Positions 3,608 to 61,143 of a DNA stretch of 64,000 nucleotides are shown here, piece after piece. Made by a program: the position numbers and the translations under genes. This stretch comes from Shewanella vesiculosa. Its GTDB lineage: Bacteria; Pseudomonadota; Gammaproteobacteria; Enterobacterales; Shewanellaceae. The stretch is taken from positions 4,138,501 to 4,202,500 of the forward strand of contig NZ_CP073588.1 of assembly GCF_021560015.1 (NCBI RefSeq), written 5' to 3'. The notes under the pieces are model-generated. The model was not told where the DNA came from, searched no databases, and was given only the letters and a program-made list of their open reading frames with translations. How positions within the stretch are numbered: position 1 is the first letter of the stretch; each line of letters begins with the position of its first letter.

Positions 3608-4795
3608 ATGTTGCCAATGTTGAGCGTTAAACGTTTATGCCACCCGAAGCTTGCCTTATTATTCTGTACTGTTTTACTTAGCGCTTGCTCTGTCCATTCA
3701 AAAAATAGCCAACACGCTTCTGATTTACCACAGTTTAATCAAGCACTGATCCATTCCACTTCTACTGAAAATGTCCCTGAGATTGCTAGTCTGACGTATC
3801 TGTCTGAAGCACAGCGACAAGAATTAGCTGCATTTATTGCCAAAGATAATATTAAAGCACTGCCCAATCGCTTAAAAGTGTCTGAGTTCATTAAGCATAA
3901 AATGACTAATTTTAATTATGAAGGCAAAAATTATACCAGTACTGAGTCATGGAAGAATCAATCTGGTAATTGTATGGCATTGGCATTATTGACCTATTCA
4001 GTTGCAAAAGAATTGAATGTATATCCGGTGTTTCAAGTGGTTCATGCTGCGCCAATATTGACCAATATTACTTCAGATATTCTTGTCACCTCAGACCATG
4101 TGCGCACGTTTTTGTATGACGAGAAACCAAGTGGGCATTTTTTTAGTGGCGGCACTGCAACTGTGATTGATTATTTTCCGGATCGTTTTGATCGCACTGG
4201 TGCCATCGTCTCAGAATCTGAATTTTTAGCGATGTTTTATCGTAATTTAGCGGCCGATGCCATGCTAGCAAAACAGTATGAATTTGCTTTTATATTACTT
4301 GAGCGAGGGTTAATGCTAGCGCCAGATTATGATGCTTTGATCAATATGATGGCCATTACTCATCGGCGCTTAGGCGACGAACAGACAGCTGAAAAACTCT
4401 ACCTGCATGCCCTTGATATTAAGCCGAATTCCTTGGCAGTATTAAGTAATTATCGCCTATTACTGGAATTACAAAACAGAATTGTAGCAGCAAAAAAGAT
4501 CGACCAATACTTGTTGTCGCTTGAGTCGAGTAACCCATATAGCTACTACAGTTTGGGTATTGAGGCATTGGAGTTCAAAGATTATCAAACCACAGTCACT
4601 TTCCTAGAAAAGTTTATCGATAACGCGCCTTATTTCCATCCGGCTTATTTTGCGCTGGCCAGAGCTCAATTGGGCCTAGGCAATACAGAAAAGGCTCAGA
4701 AAATATTAAAAAAAGCGATAGAACTGACTGATATGCCAGACAGTAAAAAGCATTATTTAGCAAAATTAGATATGTTAAACAATGTATCTGATTAG
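3608..4795 (+). CDS. Lipoprotein with transglutaminase-like domain and TPR repeats
   Basis: 395 residues. A signal sequence ends in a lipobox LLSAC with Cys27, so it is probably lipid-anchored. Residues ~85-195 look like a papain/transglutaminase fold: NCMALAL supplies a candidate nucleophile Cys122, DHVRTFLY a His164 and VIDYF an Asp188, in the order Cys-His-Asp. Residues ~205-390 are helical tetratricopeptide-like repeats (e.g. AEKLYLHALDIKPNS, AQKILKKAIELTD). ATG 3617 is an alternative start with a slightly better-spaced GGA. The combination suggests an envelope peptidase-like or scaffolding protein; the substrate is unknown. A bidirectional terminator separates it from the convergent ohr gene. 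Confidence 0.75.
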   Translation: MLPMLSVKRLCHPKLALLFCTVLLSACSVHSKNSQHASDLPQFNQALIHSTSTENVPEIASLTYLSEAQRQELAAFIAKDNIKALPNRLKVSEFIKHKMTNFNYEGKNYTSTESWKNQSGNCMALALLTYSVAKELNVYPVFQVVHAAPILTNITSDILVTSDHVRTFLYDEKPSGHFFSGGTATVIDYFPDRFDRTGAIVSESEFLAMFYRNLAADAMLAKQYEFAFILLERGLMLAPDYDALINMMAITHRRLGDEQTAEKLYLHALDIKPNSLAVLSNYRLLLELQNRIVAAKKIDQYLLSLESSNPYSYYSLGIEALEFKDYQTTVTFLEKFIDNAPYFHPAYFALARAQLGLGNTEKAQKILKKAIELTDMPDSKKHYLAKLDMLNNVSD

Positions 4796-28169: not shown

Positions 28170-29216
28170 TCACTTGGCCGAGAGCTCTTTTCTAACAATT
28201 TCAGCCCCTGCACTCAAGGCATGTAACTTACCTCTTGCGACATGATGAGGTAAGGGCGCCATGCCACAGTTGGTGCATGGATATAGTTTATCGGCATCGA
28301 CATACTGAAGTGCTTTTCGCAGGGTATTGGCGACTTCCTCTGGTGTTTCAATCGTATTGCTTGCTACATCTATGGCACCAACCATCACTTTTTTACCTCG
28401 AATGAGTTCTAGCAGCTCAATGGGCACATGAGAGTTGTGGCATTCTAGTGAGATAATATCGATATTAGACTGCTGTAGTTTAGGGAAAGCTTTTTCATAC
28501 TGTCGCCACTCTGAACCCAGTGTTTTTTTCCAATCTGTGTTGGCTTTGATGCCATAGCCATAACAAATATGCACAGCTGTTTCGCACTTTAGTCCTTCAA
28601 TGGCTCTTTCTAAACAAGCAATCCCCCAATCATTTACCTCATCAAAAAAGACATTAAATGCTGGCTCATCAAATTGAATAATATCAACACCTGCCGCTTC
28701 TAATTCTTTGGCTTCCTGATTAAGTATTTTAGCAAATTCCCACGCTAGCTTTTCGCGACTTTTATAATGGTCATCAAAAAGCGTATCTATCATTGTCATG
28801 GGGCCTGGCAGAGCCCATTTAATGGGCTGTGTGGTTTGCTGACGTAAAAACTTGGCATCTTCAACAAAAACTGATTTTTGGCGACTAACCGGGCCGACAA
28901 CCGTTGGTACACTGGCATCATAGCGATCACGAATTTTAACGGTTTTACGTTTATTAAAATCAACGCCGTTAAGATGTTCAATAAACGTAGTCACAAAATG
29001 TTGGCGTGTTTGCTCACCATCACCAACAATATCAATGCCTGCGTGTTGTTGATCTTGTAATGACAAACGTAACGCGTCTTGTTTGCCCTTAATTAATTCT
29101 TCACCTTGTAGTTTCCAAGGTGACCAAAGTGTTTCGGGTTCAGCGAGCCAAGAAGGCTTAGGTAAACTGCCTGCAGTTGAAGTGGGTAGTATTCTTTTGT
29201 TAATAAGTTTTTTCAT
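28170..29216 (-). CDS. mesD: MesD-type folate-independent methionine synthase (MetE catalytic-domain homologue)
   Basis: 348 residues, only the C-terminal catalytic half of MetE (~750 aa). The start motif LPTSTAGSLPKPSWL is MetE-like. The zinc ligands are conserved: His and Cys in AVHICYGYG, Glu in SLECHNSH and Cys in PCTNCGMAP. GDGEQTRQ and WALPGPMTM are core MetE motifs. The N-terminal folate-binding module is absent, so the methyl donor is not methyl-tetrahydrofolate polyglutamate. It lies 44 bp downstream of a DUF1852 gene. That pairing defines the MesD/MesX class described by Price and colleagues, in which MesX is required together with oxygen. Product: methionine from homocysteine; the methyl donor is unknown. 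Confidence 0.88.
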   Translation of the reverse strand: MKKLINKRILPTSTAGSLPKPSWLAEPETLWSPWKLQGEELIKGKQDALRLSLQDQQHAGIDIVGDGEQTRQHFVTTFIEHLNGVDFNKRKTVKIRDRYDASVPTVVGPVSRQKSVFVEDAKFLRQQTTQPIKWALPGPMTMIDTLFDDHYKSREKLAWEFAKILNQEAKELEAAGVDIIQFDEPAFNVFFDEVNDWGIACLERAIEGLKCETAVHICYGYGIKANTDWKKTLGSEWRQYEKAFPKLQQSNIDIISLECHNSHVPIELLELIRGKKVMVGAIDVASNTIETPEEVANTLRKALQYVDADKLYPCTNCGMAPLPHHVARGKLHALSAGAEIVRKELSAK

Positions 29217-29260
29217 AATAAATCATGCCGTATATTGGGTGTAATTATTAAACGCAGCGA

Positions 29261-30235
29261 TTAAACGTAATTGGCAGACCATTGCTCAAGCACCGTTTGA
29301 TATGGTTTGATGAAGTGTTTTTCAGCAAACTTTCCCTGCTCATTAGCCAACTGGCTACGTTCTTCTCGATCATAAACAATTTGCGTTAATGAATGATCCT
29401 GGTTCTTTAAATTGGGTTGATAGGACTTTCCAGCAGCGGCATTCGCATTATAAATCTCTGGTCGGTAGATTTTTTGAAAGGTTCCCATGGTGCTGATGGT
29501 GCTTATAAGCTCAAGATTAGTGTAATCATTAAGTAGATCACCAAAGAAATGGAAAGCCAACGGCGCAACACTATTTGGCGGCATAAAATAACGTACCTGT
29601 AGGCCCATTTTTTTGAAATATTGCTCAGTCAAAGACGACTCGTTTGGCTGGTATTCAACACCCAATACAGGATGCTGATTTTCAGTTCTATGATAGGTTT
29701 TGTTATCTGAAACACTAAGGCAGATAACAGGCGTTTTGTTAAAATTTTGTTTGTAAGCATCTGAATTAACAAAATACTGAAACAGCTTGCCATGCAGCTC
29801 GCCAAAGTTATCAGGAATGCTGAAGTTGGGCTGGTCTTTATTATGAGCCTGCAGTAATACGCTAAAATCATAATCCCGCACATAAGAGGAAAAATTATTT
29901 CCTACAATACCTTCAATGCGTTGATTAGTTTGATGATCAACAATATTCGTTTTCAATATTTCAATCGATGGGAAGGTTTTACCACTGCCTTCAATATCCA
30001 TATCAACAGAAATGATTTCAAGTTCGACGGAGTAACGATCGCCTTTAGGATTATCCCAATTCGCTAAGGCATTAAAACTGTTGTCAATCATCTTCAACGC
30101 GTTGCGCAAGTTTGCTTGGCGATAGCTTCCTCTGGCCAAATTAGCAAAGTTGGTGGTGATACGTGTATTGTTTGATGGATGATAATTTTCATCGAGACAA
30201 ATGCTCTTAATCGTAAATGTGAAATCTTTATTCAT
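29261..30235 (-). CDS. mesX: MesX (DUF1852), partner of MesD
   Basis: 324 residues without signal or TM segments. The N-terminus FTIKSICLDENYHPSNNTRITTNFANLARG and the segments VRDYDFSVLLQAHNKDQPNF, LQVRYFMPPNSVAPLAFHFFGD and GTFQKIYRPEIYNANAAAGK fit the DUF1852 family as I know it. Established knowledge: DUF1852 (MesX) is needed for MesD activity in Acinetobacter. It is the first gene of the mesX-mesD operon. I found no tandem MetJ boxes in the ~100 bp upstream, in contrast with metB and metF, so control may differ. The biochemical role of MesX (methyl-donor generation is one idea) is inference. Confidence 0.85.
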   Translation of the reverse strand: MNKDFTFTIKSICLDENYHPSNNTRITTNFANLARGSYRQANLRNALKMIDNSFNALANWDNPKGDRYSVELEIISVDMDIEGSGKTFPSIEILKTNIVDHQTNQRIEGIVGNNFSSYVRDYDFSVLLQAHNKDQPNFSIPDNFGELHGKLFQYFVNSDAYKQNFNKTPVICLSVSDNKTYHRTENQHPVLGVEYQPNESSLTEQYFKKMGLQVRYFMPPNSVAPLAFHFFGDLLNDYTNLELISTISTMGTFQKIYRPEIYNANAAAGKSYQPNLKNQDHSLTQIVYDREERSQLANEQGKFAEKHFIKPYQTVLEQWSANYV

Positions 30236-31030
30236 GATGATCTGGTATCCAATTTTGTGATTTAAAAGCCGGAATTTATGTTTTGCTCTTTATCGATACG
30301 TGCTATTCGTACTGATTTTCTGAGCAAGTCGCTGTTACCGCTTTGTTTGCTTGGTGCCTGATGGCTTACTTAGGGAGCAGCTGTAATATTGCTTGGCGCT
30401 AAAAGCATGAGTTATTTATACGTGGGTCGTAACATGAAGAAAAACGGTTTTATTTCACCTGCTACATGAGCAGTATTCATGATTATAATTAAGCGTGATT
30501 ACCTAGACATAGTTTGCGGTGTCGGATGACAATTCTGGATAATATGAGTATTGAATAACAGGCTATCTGACCTTGTTAGCCAGTGCTTGTTGAAGAGACT
30601 GGAGATATTTTTGTACTAAAACCTGTAACATTTTCACTATCTAACCAAACAGCAGCAGCGAAAAAATGGCGACGAAATGGATCCCGCTTTTAACTTCATT
30701 TGTAGTCAGCTTCGGTCCATCTGATTTGTAAAGAGTGAAAATTCTAACGTTTTCCATGGGGAGCTGATGTGAATGGAATCACGAATGTCGTGCCGGCATG
30801 GTCAATAATGTTCTCGACATCAACTGACATTCCCCATATCCATATGGGTCAGGTGCCAAAGAGCGACCCTGCCACCGAAAACTAGCCTGACGTCTTGTCA
30901 TTCTCAAGTATTCTTCTCTTTTATAAATAGTCTTCAATCCATTGTATTTTCATAGGTTTGAAGTTAAGAACTCTCAAAGAGGTAATCGAAAAGTTTGTCG
31001 GTTTCAGCTAATGTGCTCGCAATATTTACA
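30236..31030. other. 795-bp gene-poor region upstream of mesX
   Basis: No convincing gene. A GC-richer stretch at about 30750-30890 reads on the minus strand as short open segments (one containing ENIIDHAGTTFVIPF) that break in all frames; it looks like a decayed gene or mobile-element remnant. A single MetJ-like octamer TGACGTCT occurs at 30888-30895 without a tandem partner. The promoter of mesX must lie near 30240-30330. Confidence 0.4.
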
Positions 31031-31627
31031 TTACTGTTGTTTGGCTTGATATTGCTGTTTAACGTCTTCAATCAGTTTTTGCCACTGAGGATATTCAGCA
31101 AAGCTTTGTTGTAAGTCGCCCCAAGGCGTTAGCGCATCGGCCATTGAAGGTGCTTTAGATTGTGTGGTCTGGTATAAATAATAAAATGCTGACGCACGAT
31201 AATTTGCTGCGCAATGGACTAGCACTGGAGCGTCGCCATTTTTCTTCATCAGGCTAAAAAACTGCTCAACATCTTCTTTTGTAGGATGCTGCCAGTCCAC
31301 GCTAATATTGTGATAATTCATCCCTAGCTGAGTCACTATTTGCTGCTCATTTTTTAATGCATTTGGGTTGTCATTAGGAATGAGATTTATCACCGTTTTG
31401 ATACCTGCTTGAGCGAGTTGTGCAAATTGCTGCTGTGTGGGCAAACCCGCGGTAATCACTTGTTGGTTATTAAATTTAACCGCTTTTATGTCGCCAAGTT
31501 TACTGGTGTCAATATGAGTCATGCTACCTCCTTTGTTCATATCCGCACTGAACACTTGCGCACTAAAAAAGAAACAACAGATCAATAAGCTAGCTGACAG
31601 TACGCAATAGCGTTGCAGTATATTCAT
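31031..31627 (-). CDS. Periplasmic DUF442/dual-specificity phosphatase-like protein
   Basis: 198 residues. A signal peptide (LSASLLICCFFFSAQVFSAD) predicts export. The rest follows the 'beta-lactamase hydrolase-like' (DUF442) phosphatase fold: VITAGLPTQQQFAQLAQAGIKTVINLIPNDNP, then the Cys-phosphatase P-loop HCAANYRAS (C-x5-R) with its preceding VLV strand. A general acid Asp may be in the SVDWQHPTKED loop. Exported members of this family are common in Shewanella; substrates are unknown. It is monocistronic. Confidence 0.8.
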   Translation of the reverse strand: MNILQRYCVLSASLLICCFFFSAQVFSADMNKGGSMTHIDTSKLGDIKAVKFNNQQVITAGLPTQQQFAQLAQAGIKTVINLIPNDNPNALKNEQQIVTQLGMNYHNISVDWQHPTKEDVEQFFSLMKKNGDAPVLVHCAANYRASAFYYLYQTTQSKAPSMADALTPWGDLQQSFAEYPQWQKLIEDVKQQYQAKQQ

Positions 31628-52672: not shown

Positions 52673-53410
52673 TTAAATTAATGCGATTGTCGACTTTATT
52701 ACTAATATTGTTGCGCTAATGCTACACAATATTAATGTCGCAGCCCGGGTTTTCTCTTTATCGACACGGCCAATTAATCGACCAGAGACAAGGTAGCCAG
52801 CAATGACTGAGGGGAGTAATAGCAGTGATAGCCATAAATGTTTTACTTCAACTAAGCCGACAACGGCTAAAATAGCCAATGCGATTAATGAGCTAAAGAC
52901 AAAAAAGGCTGATAGCGCCGCCCTAAATTGACTGGCATCTTGACCGGCAAGTAAAATGGCCATTGGTGGGCCGCCGATCGCAGCGATATTGCCAAATATG
53001 CCCGAAAATACCCCAGCGATAAATAAACTGATGCGATTGATTGGTGCGGTAAAGCGAAAGACGCTTAGGATAACGGCAATAAACACGATTGCTGCAATCA
53101 CCAAGCCTAGTATGGCTTGTGGTGCAAACAGTAATAACCCAGCACCTAAAAATCCTCCTGGAATACGTCCAAGTAAGGCATATTGTAATCCATTAAACTG
53201 CAGGTGGCCGCGCTCTCTAAACAAGGTCATTGCAGAGATTGCAAAACCCATGGCAATAATAGGAACAGGAACTAATTGAGGATTAACAATATACAGTAGT
53301 GGGCTTGCTACAACGGCTAACCCAAAGCCAATTAAGCTTTGAGTTAGCGCGCCAAAAAATACAATAATTGATGCCAGTATCAAAGTGGTTGGATCGATAA
53401 ATGACATCAT
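52673..53410 (-). CDS. TSUP-family (TauE/SafE) membrane permease
   Basis: 245 residues, hydrophobic throughout with about 7-8 TM segments. TSUP features: GALTQSLIGFGLAVVASPLLYIVNPQLVPVPIIAMG near the N-terminus and the repeat GIFGNIAAIGGPPMAILLAG in the second half. TSUP proteins move anions such as sulfite, sulfonates or related compounds across the inner membrane. Location between the OTR operon and metJ/metB makes a sulfur compound plausible, but this is inference. The start may be 53410 or 53407. Monocistronic. Confidence 0.88.
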   Translation of the reverse strand: MMSFIDPTTLILASIIVFFGALTQSLIGFGLAVVASPLLYIVNPQLVPVPIIAMGFAISAMTLFRERGHLQFNGLQYALLGRIPGGFLGAGLLLFAPQAILGLVIAAIVFIAVILSVFRFTAPINRISLFIAGVFSGIFGNIAAIGGPPMAILLAGQDASQFRAALSAFFVFSSLIALAILAVVGLVEVKHLWLSLLLLPSVIAGYLVSGRLIGRVDKEKTRAATLILCSISATILVIKSTIALI

Positions 53411-53604: not shown

Positions 53605-53919
53605 TTATTCGAGCTCTTCCCATTCTATACCCATATCATCCATTAACTTTTTCGCTTCACTTGGAATGCTATCAGGCTGATCTTTTGATAAATCACCGTC
53701 ATAAGGTAATGGTTGACCTGTGTACGCGTGCAAAAATGCTTCGCATAGCAGTTCACTGTTAGTTGCATGGCGCAGATTATTTATCTGGCGACGCGTCCGC
53801 TCATCTGTCAGTACTTTTAATACTTTTAAAGGGATAGAAACCGTAATTTTTTTTACTTGTTCATTTTTTTTGCCGTGTTCGGCATATGGGCTGATATATT
53901 CGCCATTCCATTCAGTCAT
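53605..53919 (-). CDS. metJ: Methionine repressor MetJ
   Basis: 104 residues, exactly the MetJ length. The ribbon-helix-helix region [50 protein letters not shown] is the conserved DNA-binding core, where the beta-ribbon Lys-Thr residues contact AGACGTCT boxes with S-adenosylmethionine as corepressor. The N-terminus [15 protein letters not shown] also matches. It is divergent from metB with MetJ boxes between them, so it autoregulates and represses metB (and metF downstream). Confidence 0.97.
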
Positions 53920-54025
53920 TAACTTACCCTTAACGATAAATACGCTGCAGATTTTAAACCGTTACAATCTCTAGTCAAATTATTGCTACTATTTAATCCC
54001 GATGCAAATAGATTTCTCGATGTTT

Positions 54026-54041
54026 AGACGTCTAAACGGCT
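54026..54041. promoter_or_regulatory. MetJ boxes near the metJ promoter
   Basis: Two contiguous octamers AGACGTCT (54026-54033, perfect consensus) and AAACGGCT (54034-54041). The preceding octamer CGATGTTT matches partly. These probably control metJ and contribute to metB repression. Confidence 0.85.
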
Positions 54042-54048
54042 ATTTTGG

Positions 54049-54077
54049 TTGACTCGGGGAGAACTCTTCGGTAAATT
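54049..54077 (+). promoter_or_regulatory. Candidate sigma-70 promoter of metB
   Basis: TTGACT (54049-54054), 17-bp spacer, TAAATT (54072-54077); flanked on both sides by MetJ boxes. Confidence 0.65.
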
Positions 54078-54078
54078 T

Positions 54079-54094
54079 GGACGTCTAGACATCT
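54079..54094. promoter_or_regulatory. MetJ boxes at the metB promoter
   Basis: GGACGTCT (54079-54086) followed directly by AGACATCT (54087-54094). They lie right after the -10 element, ideal to block metB transcription. Confidence 0.85.
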
Positions 54095-54126: not shown

Positions 54127-55296
54127 ATGACTCAGTATCAAAGTGCCACTTTGGCCGTTCGCCAGGGTATAGAAACAGACACACAACATGGTGCTATCGT
54201 GCCGCCGATTTATTTATCGACCAATTATTCATTTGATGGCCATACTAATCCTCGCGAGTTTGACTACAGCCGTTCAGGTAACCCGACGCGTTGTATATTA
54301 GGTGAGGCGATTGCAAAACTTGAGCAAGGTGTAACTGGTGTGGTGACATGTACCGGCATGGCGGCCATTACCTTAGTGACCAGTTTGTTGGGCCCTGATG
54401 ATTTATTGGTTGTGCCGCACGATTGTTATGGTGGCAGTTACCGTTTATTTACTAACCTGGCCAAAAAAGGTCAATTTAAGTTATTGGTTGTTGATCAAAC
54501 TGATGCGCAAGCGCTGGGCAACGCGATAGCGCAAAATCCCAAAATGGTCTGGTTAGAAACGCCATCAAATCCATTACTGCGGGTAGTCGATATTAATGCG
54601 ATCAGTATCGCTTGCCATGAGGTTGGCGCGTTAGTGGCGGTTGATAACACTTTTTTGTCGCCAATATTACAACAACCTTTATTGTTGGGGGCCGATATCG
54701 TTATTCACTCAACCACTAAATACATTAATGGTCACAGTGATGTGGTCGGTGGCGCTGTGGTGGCTAAAGATGCTGAAGTGGGTGAATTATTACATTGGTG
54801 GTCAAACACCCTTGGATTAACCGGTTCTGCTTTTGATAGCTATTTAACCTTACGTGGCTTAAGAACGCTGGCAGTCCGCATTCGTGAGCATCAACGTAAT
54901 GCGCAAAAAATTGTAGAATTACTCAATGCCAGTGATGTGGTTGCCAAGGTGTATTACCCAGGGCTAAAAGACCATCCGGGTCACGAAATTGCCGCAAAAC
55001 AACAACAAGGTTTTGGCGCTATGTTAAGTTTTGAATTAACCGGTGGTGAAGCTGAAGTGGTGGCCTTTTTACAGGCATTATCTTTGTTTAGTATTGCTGA
55101 AAGTTTAGGCGGAGTGGAAAGTTTAGTTGCTGTTCCTGCCACCATGACTCACCGTGCAATGGACCCACAGGCAAGGCAGCAGGCTGGTATTAAAGACACT
55201 TTACTGAGATTATCTGTCGGTATTGAAGATGCAGATGACCTGCTCGCGGATATTCAAGCCGGTCTCGCCGCTGTTACTGCGATAAAATCAGCTTGA
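54127..55296 (+). CDS. metB: Cystathionine gamma-synthase
   Basis: 389 residues, normal MetB length. PLP-dependent Cys/Met-metabolism family motifs: FDYSRSGNPTR (~46-55), TGMAAITLV, WLETPSNPLLRVVDI, AVDNTFLSPI and the PLP Lys198 in IHSTTKYINGHSDVVGG. The SVGIEDADDLLADI C-terminus fits MetB rather than MetC. It condenses O-succinylhomoserine with cysteine to cystathionine, the first dedicated step of transsulfuration. MetJ boxes sit at the promoter and metL follows 140 bp later. Confidence 0.95.
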   Translation: MTQYQSATLAVRQGIETDTQHGAIVPPIYLSTNYSFDGHTNPREFDYSRSGNPTRCILGEAIAKLEQGVTGVVTCTGMAAITLVTSLLGPDDLLVVPHDCYGGSYRLFTNLAKKGQFKLLVVDQTDAQALGNAIAQNPKMVWLETPSNPLLRVVDINAISIACHEVGALVAVDNTFLSPILQQPLLLGADIVIHSTTKYINGHSDVVGGAVVAKDAEVGELLHWWSNTLGLTGSAFDSYLTLRGLRTLAVRIREHQRNAQKIVELLNASDVVAKVYYPGLKDHPGHEIAAKQQQGFGAMLSFELTGGEAEVVAFLQALSLFSIAESLGGVESLVAVPATMTHRAMDPQARQQAGIKDTLLRLSVGIEDADDLLADIQAGLAAVTAIKSA

Positions 55297-55436
55297 GTTG
55301 GCTTAATTCGAGTTTAAGTTTGCTGTGGTTCCGGCCAAATAAAGTAAAATAGAAAATATGCACTTGCCACACTGTTTATTTCAAATTAGAAGTATAGCTG
55401 TCGCAATAAAAGTCTTAGTTGTTTAAGGAGTTAGTA

Positions 55437-57829
55437 ATGACGCGAAGTCATTTACATAAGTTTGGTGGTTCAAGTTTAGCGGATGCAGATTGCTATCGCC
55501 GTGTTGCCCATATTTTGCTTACACATGGTCAAAGTGATGATTTAGTTGTGGTATCGGCCGCCGGCAAAACGACTAACTTTTTATACAAATTACTCACTCT
55601 GCGTGACAGCGGTCAGTTATGGCAAGAAGAGCTTCAAGTGCTGATCAGTTATCAGCAGACATTAATTGAACAGTTATTATCAAATGAGCTGGCTCGTGAC
55701 CTACGTGAGCGCCTGTCGACTGACAAATCGCAATTAGTCAGTTTATTGTCTTTAGAGCAGCGTAATGACTACCAATTAAACCAAGTGGTCAGTTTTGGTG
55801 AGCGTTGGTCTGCACGCCTTATGGCCGCATTGCTGAGAGAAATGGGTGTAACAGCCACTCATGTGGATGCGTGTTCTATTTTGGTTGCAGACGAAGGTGC
55901 TATTCCCAATATTTTAGTGGCGCAATCGCGTGAAAAAGTACAAGCCTTACTCGCTTTGCATCCGCAAGAGCGTTTAGTTATTACAGGTTTTATTTGTGCT
56001 AATCGTCATGGTGATACGTTATTGTTGGGCCGTAATGGTTCAGATTTTAGCGCTACCTTAATCGCCAGTTTAGCCGACATTGAGCGTGTGACGATTTGGA
56101 CTGATGTTGAAGGGGTATTTAACGCCGACCCGAATAAAATTAATGACGCTAAATTACTCAAGAGTATGTCACTAGCAGAAGCGGATCGCTTAGCTCGTCT
56201 AGGCTCGCCTGTATTGCACTCGCGTACCCTACATTGTTTAATACTCACACGTAAGTTTAGCCGTGCGGTCCAGTTATGCTTCACACACTGACTTTACCTT
56301 GATTGCTCCACTGAGTTCATCAGCCAGTGCACCCGTTGTGACTAACTTAAATGAAGTGGTGTTGTTTAGTTTTAAAATGAACGCTGACATTGAGCCGTTA
56401 CTGACTATTTTAGATAACGTTGGCATTACGCCTTTAGCTTATTGGTCGCTAGCACAGAATAAGATTGAACTTGCGCTTACCCTAGAGTGCCAGAAACAAG
56501 TACAGGCCTTATTGACGCAATACAGCAGTGAGTTTGGTATTGACGAGTTAAGTGCCCAAACTGATTTAGGTTTAGTGGCCCTTGTCAGTGCTGATGCGCA
56601 TCACTTTAGACGCAGTTTTGCCCGATTACTTAGCCGCGATGCTAAACCTGTTTATCAAGATTCACTGAGTTTAGTCACCTTAGTGCCGCAAGCTCAAGTG
56701 AGCTTATTGACTCAGAAAGTGCATCGTCGTTGCGCTGGGCCAAGAATGCGCATCGGAGTATTATTGTTGGGCGTGGGCAATATAGGTGAGGCGTGGATTG
56801 ATTTATTTAAACGCGCAAGCCCTGCATTGGATCACGAACTTGAGGCTACTGTTGAGTTAGTGGGTTTAGTCGGCTCGAAAAAAAGCCTTGATCTCTAATG
56901 ACGGAATTAACCTCGAGCAATGGCAACAAGATTATCAGCAGCACGGCATTGAATGGGATTATGACAAATTGTTTGATCAGTTGGCACTGTTGTCATGCGA
57001 TGAAATCGTCGCACTCGATATCAGTGCCAGTGCAGCGTTAACCTTACAATATCCAGAGTTATTTGCCCGCGGAATTCATGTGGTGAGCGCAAATAAATTA
57101 GCCGGCTCTGGGCCATTACCTTTTTATCGCGAATTAAAACTGCAACTCAGTAATCGTCGCTTGTTTTGGCGTTATAACGCGAGTTGTGGCGCCGGTTTAC
57201 CAATACAACATGCATTAAATGATTTACGTAACAGTGGCGACACAATTGAGGCCGTTGGTGGCATATTTTCCGGCACCTTGTGTTGGCTGTTTGAAAATTA
57301 TGACGGCAGTAAACCGTTTTCTGAATTAGTACTCCACGCTCGAAGTTTAGGTATTACAGAACCTGATCCGCGTGATGACTTGTCGGGCCGCGATATGCAA
57401 CGTAAGTTGTTAATCTTGGCGCGCGAGATTGGTTTGGCGATAGAATTAGATGATATCAGTCTTAATTCGTTAGTGCCTAAAGCCTTAGCCGAGTTATCAC
57501 TTGAAGACTTTTTATCACGCATCAGTGAATTAGATGATGGTTTGTTGCAGCAATATGTCGCTGCAACAGAGCAACATAAAGTACTGCGCTATGTGGCTTC
57601 GTTGGATAAAGTGGAAGGTAAGTTACAAGCTGAAGTGAGTTTGCAGTGGGTGGATAATCATCATCCTTATGCCAATTTAACCCCAGGCGATAATGTGTTT
57701 GTTATTCGCAGTACGTTTTATCAAGGTAACCCTTTGATTATCCGCGGACCAGGGGCCGGGCGTGAGGTGACTGCTGCAGCGGTGCAGTCCGATTTAGTGC
57801 ATATCTGCAAAGACCTGTTACAAGAGTAA
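55437..57829 (+). pseudogene. metL: Bifunctional aspartokinase/homoserine dehydrogenase II with two frame changes
   Basis: ATG 55437 has AAGGAG 6 bp upstream. The three frames join to ~797 residues, as in MetL. Aspartokinase: HKFGGSSLAD, LVVVSAAGKTTN, GFICANRHGDTLLLGRNGSDFSATLIASL, LGSPVLHSRTL. Homoserine dehydrogenase: VLLLGVGNIGEAWIDLF, VVSANKLAGSGPLPFYREL, ASCGAGLPI, GIFSGTLCWLF, RGPGAGREVTAAAVQSDL. The first change (+1 or equivalent) lies at about 56235-56262, where the usual TLQP motif reads TLHC. The second is an A7 run at 56878-56884; six A restore GSKKALISNDGINLEQW. Either metL is recently inactivated or these are sequence errors; other aspartokinases would be needed if it is dead. 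Confidence 0.88.
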
Positions 57830-60142: not shown

Positions 60143-60196
60143 TTGACTTAGGATGCAGTTAAACTAGTATATGGACATATAGACGTCCAAACGGCT
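60143..60196 (+). promoter_or_regulatory. metF promoter with three contiguous MetJ boxes
   Basis: TTGACT (60143-60148) and TAGTAT (60165-60170) form a sigma-70-like promoter. Immediately downstream lie GGACATAT (60173-60180), AGACGTCC (60181-60188) and AAACGGCT (60189-60196), three end-to-end octamers of the AGACGTCT type. AAACGGCT is identical to the second box at metJ. Confidence 0.82.

Positions 60197-60231: not shown

Positions 60232-61143
<912 letters not shown>

Follow-up and report, generated by a model that had tools for sequence, protein, structure and literature searches.

A 64,000-nt stretch of the Shewanella vesiculosa genome (the window) carries two adjacent genes on the minus strand, mesX and mesD, with a predicted LysR-type promoter upstream of mesX and several genes of the classical methionine pathway further along. 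The features of the window, together with regulator genes from related loci, are listed in Table 1.

Table 1. Features of the mesX-mesD locus, the classical methionine genes and MesR genes of related loci (window positions unless a locus is named)
Feature	Coordinates	Strand	Description
mesD	28170..29216	-	Folate-independent core methionine synthase, 348 aa, MetE catalytic half only (assigned by sequence)
mesX	29261..30235	-	PF08908/DUF1852 putative oxygenase, partner of MesD, 324 aa
Inferred 5′ leader, about 173 nt	30236..30408	-	No Rfam match above chance, ordinary fold
Predicted -10, TATAAAT	30414..30420	-	60 bp from box 1 start
Degenerate second MetR-like site	30434..30448	-	32 bp past box 1 start; right half TTCAT alone retained
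MetR-like box 1, ATGAATACTGCTCAT	30466..30480	-	1 mismatch to ATGAA-N5-TTCAT; 230 bp before mesX start
metJ	53605-53919	-	Confirmed in window
Tandem MetJ boxes	54018..54094		metJ-metB intergenic; 2-3 mismatches of 16
metB	54127-55296	+	Confirmed in window
MetJ boxes	60173..60196		Upstream of metF; 3-4 mismatches of 16
metF	60244-61143	+	Confirmed in window
MesR genes	L024 9322-10206; L068 4903-5790; L125 7361-8260; L129 3996-4868; L130 about 3810-4682		

In a profile search, the mesX product matched PF08908 over the entire profile (positions 1-323 of 323) with 611.9 bits, the cut-off being 25. The mesD product scored 711.7 bits against the NCBIfam methionine synthase model PRK09121 (cut-off 392) and at most 233 bits against other methionine synthase models, and PF01717 spans its residues 10-335. 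Residues 3-347 aligned with PDB entry 3RPD at 723 bits, as against 86 bits or less for MetE chains, and the N-terminal folate domain PF08267 gave just 19.9 bits, under its cut-off of 27. By motif, His216, Cys218, Glu258 and Cys317 of MesD are the zinc ligands corresponding to His641, Cys643, Glu665 and Cys726 of the E. coli enzyme, and Ser17, Glu68 and Asp183 occupy the homocysteine-binding positions; these roles come from a comparison by eye with the residues that PMC7857596 gives in its excerpted text. A first-pass annotation of the window, made from its letters alone, had described a DUF1852 gene followed after 44 bp by a MetE catalytic half with all four zinc ligands retained and no folate domain. 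Both reading frames and the 44-bp gap are where it had placed them, the DUF1852 assignment and the domain and ligand description are borne out, and the MetE homologue sides with MesD rather than with MetE chains. Judged by these matches, the two genes are mesD and mesX and make up a mesX-mesD operon.

The partner protein is less easily placed by structure. No relative of MesX was found by sequence in the PDB, and a profile search for remote homologues returned two matches to poxvirus proteins (E values of 0.023 and 0.82, about 79 residues) that were judged to be chance. An alignment of 38 hand-picked MesX sequences, each sharing 58% identity or more with the window protein, contained too many invariant positions to locate an active site. 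The best named relative is from Shewanella frigidimarina (97% protein identity), followed by Colwellia (93%). Relatives of mesX were also seen on 209 plasmid records, many of them from Pantoea, Acinetobacter, Agrobacterium and Acetobacter, and so the pair moves on plasmids; in Pantoea piersonii, one match is split in two, with an IS1 transposase annotated beneath it.

Conservation of the putative promoter was assessed in the nearest named mesX loci (the best 80 of 421 confirmed), of which one, L080, was dropped because its upstream stretch was too short, leaving 79. A box 1 within one mismatch of the published ATGAA-N5-TTCAT is present in 72 of the 79 relatives, compared to about 3 in shuffled sequences. 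With one mismatch allowed in the -10 element and two in box 1, TATAAA follows the box by 57-64 bp in 78 of 79, compared to 7.0 of 79 in shuffles; the shuffles preserve base composition only, and the counts overstate independence because the relatives share ancestry. The spacing itself is 59-61 bp in 77 of 79. The half-site that reads CTCAT instead of TTCAT in the window box deviates in the same way in most relatives. In 20 of 78 relatives there is a second site, ATCAA-N5-TTCAT with at most one mismatch per half, 31 bp past the start of box 1. Counted from the predicted start, the centre of box 1 falls at about -65, the classical position for a LysR-type activator. Across the 4.78-Mb genome, the variant box with at most one mismatch occurs at 19 sites, the mesX site included, versus 8 for a reversed control, so the box alone is weak and it is conservation that carries the argument; the metE-metR region has MetR sites with two mismatches only. 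The inferred leader differs in length and sequence among relatives, and a riboswitch or structured leader was rejected for now, the window leader giving two chance-level Rfam matches and a fold z of -0.77. We predict from this architecture a MetR-type promoter, and its geometry, with a MetR-like box and a -10 element at a set distance, goes beyond the literature searched.

Regulation of mesXD by MetJ was also considered and rejected. Tandem AGACGTCT MetJ boxes were not found over positions 30236-31030 before mesX, where the best 16-mer has 6 mismatches, equal to shuffled sequence. The boxes near metJ, metB and metF (Table 1) are matched by others at metE-metR and at metH. The metL gene (aspartate kinase II/homoserine dehydrogenase II; 55419-57829, plus strand) is distributed over three ORFs in different frames, probably through sequencing indels or decay, and no clear MetJ box was found in the stretch directly before it (best 5 mismatches). 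The first-pass annotation had listed metB, metL, metF and metJ with MetJ boxes, and had seen no box before mesX. This holds for metB, metF, metJ and mesX; metL as an intact, boxed gene does not stand. Its proposal that mesX is under a control different from that of the classical pathway was right, and the control predicted here is a MetR-type promoter.

The rest of the genome, a single contig of 4.78 Mb, encodes a complete MetE of 763 aa. Divergent from metE is metR (locus L087 3810-4712, plus strand), whose best NCBIfam match is the MetR model at 256.6 bits, a score below that model's cut-off of 382. The metH gene (L086 1033-4747; genome C1:2502532-2506246) has a frameshift inside its C-terminal activation domain and continues in a second reading frame; the other 35 genomes of the genus have this domain in a single frame, two of them showing an extra partial match. 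Three genes of the TSUP transporter family (TauE/SafE, PF01925) are likewise in pieces (G000:C1:1098436-1099151, 1670705-1671416 and 4111944-4112628), and no internal stops were found among the TSUP matches of 24 other genomes. Since metL, metH and the TSUP genes are split in one and the same assembly, we treat the frameshifts as likely indel errors or general decay. For that reason, and with metE intact, the metH frameshift was rejected as proof that the host depends on MesXD.

The neighbourhoods of mesXD in relatives have two recurrent members, the more frequent being a TSUP gene, which is linked in 60 of the 80 nearest loci (best 80 of 421; L006-L085). In 45 of these loci the gene belongs to one subfamily and lies divergently upstream of mesX, and in 15 it belongs to a second, 36% identical to the first, and lies downstream of mesD. 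In an evenly drawn sample of the phylum, mesX was found in 25 of 299 genomes, or 24 after leaving out the window's own. A TSUP gene lies within about 6 kb of mesXD in 6 of these 24 (one contig is just 4.5 kb), against about 0.34 expected from per-genome TSUP numbers, and is absent in the other 18; the nominal Poisson value (1.7e-6) overstates the case, as four of the six genomes come from one family. The genes for MesX, MesD, a flavin reductase and a third type of TSUP stand in a row in G129, which is among the six, an order repeated on an Acinetobacter lwoffii plasmid with the TSUP frame shortened. Taken together over loci L006-L085 and L133-L170, the linked TSUPs span three distant lineages. 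Within the genus, mesX is present in 12 of 36 genomes and a linked TSUP gene in 4 of those 12.

The second recurrent member is a MetR-like LysR subfamily distinct from MetR, here named MesR. It is linked to mesXD in 15 of the 80 near loci, 13 times with the second TSUP subfamily and never with the first, and near-locus members often accompany the second promoter box, ATCAATTTTATTCAT, 31 bp downstream of box 1. MesR proteins are 46-70% identical between lineages and about 35% identical to the host MetR. Linked genes also occur in 3 of the 24 phylum genomes (a fourth, G137, has a gene closer to MetR, at 43%) and in plasmid records of Acetobacter, Paracoccus and Burkholderia, so that the subfamily spans gamma-, alpha- and betaproteobacteria.

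At the window's own mesXD, no linked TSUP, MesR or flavin reductase gene was found. Positions 30481-31030, between the mesX promoter and the next gene, comprise about 550 bp in which no ORF reaches 80 aa; in many relatives the same stretch holds the divergent TSUP gene, and tblastn found no TSUP remnant in it here. The next gene upstream (31031-31627, minus strand) encodes a DSP-phosphatase-like protein that is weakly similar to the sulfur transferase part of Blh and has, by eye, an apparent N-terminal signal peptide; it is not recurrent in 47 other loci compared. The host genome's best relatives of the first linked TSUP are just 46% and 42% identical to it. A TSUP gene does occur elsewhere in the window (52673-53410, minus strand; 84 bits to PF01925), where it follows metJ immediately and in the same orientation, at a distance of 22 kb from mesXD, and it matched none of the mesXD-linked types.

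Two reference flavin reductases found no match in any part of the window. Of the loci searched, L127 and L129 (their sources), L110/L150 and L130 gave matches to them, the last at 27-28%: this Burkholderia arboris plasmid carries after mesD a distant flavin reductase gene (L130 7179-7676) with that identity to the Acinetobacter and Paracoccus types. The host's two PF01613 flavin reductase genes were set aside as candidates, since neither has a match at E 1e-3 to the mes-linked type of Acinetobacter or Paracoccus. Plasmids of A. lwoffii (L127 1549-3605) and B. arboris (L130 7833-9338, 2613-3332) also have, near mesXD, a QueH-type gene and a gene for a methylenetetrahydrofolate reductase-like protein whose C-terminal domain is DUF5981.

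Orthologues of the pair have been studied in some depth. According to the excerpted text of PMC7857596, MesD needs MesX and oxygen, not MetF or cobalamin, and MesXD orthologues rescue metE and metF mutants of E. coli, but only in air. The same excerpts predict that a central metabolite is the source of the methyl group, which MesX would make with oxygen and perhaps reduced flavin, note that 3RPD contains zinc and selenomethionine, and describe a flavin reductase gene as often near MesX, not as a defining trait. PF08908-metE2 is listed in the MetR regulon in the part of PMC4239095 available, and PMC3228920, likewise in part, describes a 'MetE1' adjoining pfam08908 without metboxes. In two strains of Acinetobacter baumannii, B12 lowers DUF1852 transcripts about 300-fold (log2 of -8.3 and -8.1; PMC12892962, in excerpt), in keeping with a role as a cobalamin-free backup. 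None of the literature matches listed names the methyl donor of MesD/MesX, in line with the first-pass annotation.

Based on these results, the operon very probably constitutes a MetR-activated bypass, aerobic and free of both methyl-THF and cobalamin, beside a folate route marked by MetJ boxes. From our analysis this draws on gene identity, the conserved ligands, promoter conservation and the genomic metR, metE and frameshifted metH. MesD would be a zinc-dependent methyltransferase that methylates homocysteine; because it lacks the methyl-folate-binding domain, MesX would have to supply the methyl group, by acting on a common cell metabolite in a reaction that consumes oxygen. The homocysteine-sensing activator MetR would switch the operon on from the LysR-type promoter, some 230-170 bp before mesX, the genes of the folate route (metB, metF, metE and metH) carrying MetJ boxes instead. 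The bypass would then act when homocysteine builds up, under aerobic conditions and with need of neither cobalamin nor methyl-THF. For this host, we infer activity, MetR binding and the condition of use. Counting against this reading are the deviating half-site of box 1, a host MetR that scores below the NCBIfam cut-off, the two-mismatch MetR sites at metE-metR, and the lack of the flavin reductase neighbour that Acinetobacter has. The earlier suggestion of methionine synthesis without methyl-THF in this host is reasonable in view of the tested orthologues, and the interpretation in which it stood is, overall, partly supported. The pair represents a known two-gene pathway with which a Shewanella-like host probably completes methionine without the usual folate methyl donor.

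The promoter of a functional pair might obey some other LysR-type regulator or signal, with the housekeeping MetR marginal. The linkage of MesR in near loci and in Acetobacter, Paracoccus and Burkholderia, often with the second box in the near loci, favours such a regulator, and Acinetobacter has the B12-repressed pair (PMC12892962) in a family reportedly without MetR (PMC4239095, both in excerpt). However, no MesR gene lies at the window operon, the nearest relative of MesR in the host genome is metR itself (36% identity; next best 28%), and published regulon work, in the part of PMC4239095 available, places the pair under MetR. We consider control by another regulator unlikely in this host.

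That the operon is a decaying leftover making no contribution is very unlikely. It is true that mesX is confined to a third of the same-genus genomes, that the window copy lacks the TSUP and regulator genes common beside its relatives, and that metE is intact. Against this, mesX and mesD are both uninterrupted and of full length where the same assembly splits other genes, the promoter is conserved, and MesX is nearly identical to its S. frigidimarina counterpart. Some MetE-like proteins have other functions, and with MesX having neither a known substrate nor a PDB relative by sequence, the pair could be imagined as a non-methionine methyltransferase, for example for another thiol, with an oxygenase partner. 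Yet the zinc and homocysteine residues are all kept in MesD, 3RPD holds zinc and selenomethionine, and orthologues restore methionine growth (PMC7857596, in excerpt); such a function has, if anything, slightly less to recommend it than decay.

The MetR-activated bypass may in turn be only the core of a modular locus. We tentatively propose, as a possibility that is less likely than not, that mesXD recurrently acquires a TSUP partner, drawn from at least three distant lineages, and in several lineages MesR; that the TSUP exports what MesX leaves over (a small acid or sulfite) or imports its substrate; and that the window copy is a stripped-down version using the housekeeping MetR and transporters encoded elsewhere. 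The TSUP link suggests a small anion as the leftover or substrate of MesX. The transporter cannot be strictly required, because mesD and mesX alone suffice in E. coli (PMC7857596, in excerpt). If the proposal is true, the methyl source would be narrowed to small anions, providing a testable handle on the MesX reaction.

Much of the biology had been published: absence of MetJ boxes in 2011, control by MetR in 2014, and function, oxygen need and MetF independence in 2021. The novelty implied by the first-pass annotation is thus smaller than it seems, and the window operon is an ordinary member of a known system that does not solve the chemistry of MesX. What goes beyond the literature searched lies in the promoter architecture and in the TSUP/MesR linkage among relatives rather than in the operon itself. 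The main text of PMC7857596 makes no mention of TauE, SafE, transporters or LysR, nor does PMC4239095 mention TauE or COG0730; among the literature matches listed, none was on point, by title and opening of the abstract, for TauE with MetR and methionine synthase or metE2. How MesX reaches a methyl group via oxygen is a question of core metabolism, as it concerns methionine made without methyl-folate or cobalamin. The recurrent TSUP and MesR neighbours offer a concrete lead on the by-product or substrate of MesX, and the promoter architecture predicts the conditions under which the bypass is used.

Among known systems, the nearest solved relative of the window MesD is that of Shewanella sp. 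W3-18-1 (PDB 3RPD), with which nearly the whole protein aligns and from which no functional difference is visible. The MetE1 group, in the excerpts of PMC3228920, likewise has a half-size MetE downstream of pfam08908 without metboxes, and no difference from the window was seen. The PF08908-metE2 operon of the MetR regulon shares with the window a MetR-type box before the operon, whereas the available part of that account (PMC4239095) says nothing of promoter geometry, a second box or linkage to MesR and TSUP genes. The pairs of Acinetobacter baylyi (ACIAD3523/3524) and Sphingomonas koreensis (MesD/MesX) comprise the same two adjacent families with the same zinc and substrate residues (PMC7857596, in excerpt). 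In contrast to these, the window operon has no adjoining flavin reductase gene, and its host possesses metE, metR and a folate route equipped with MetJ boxes.
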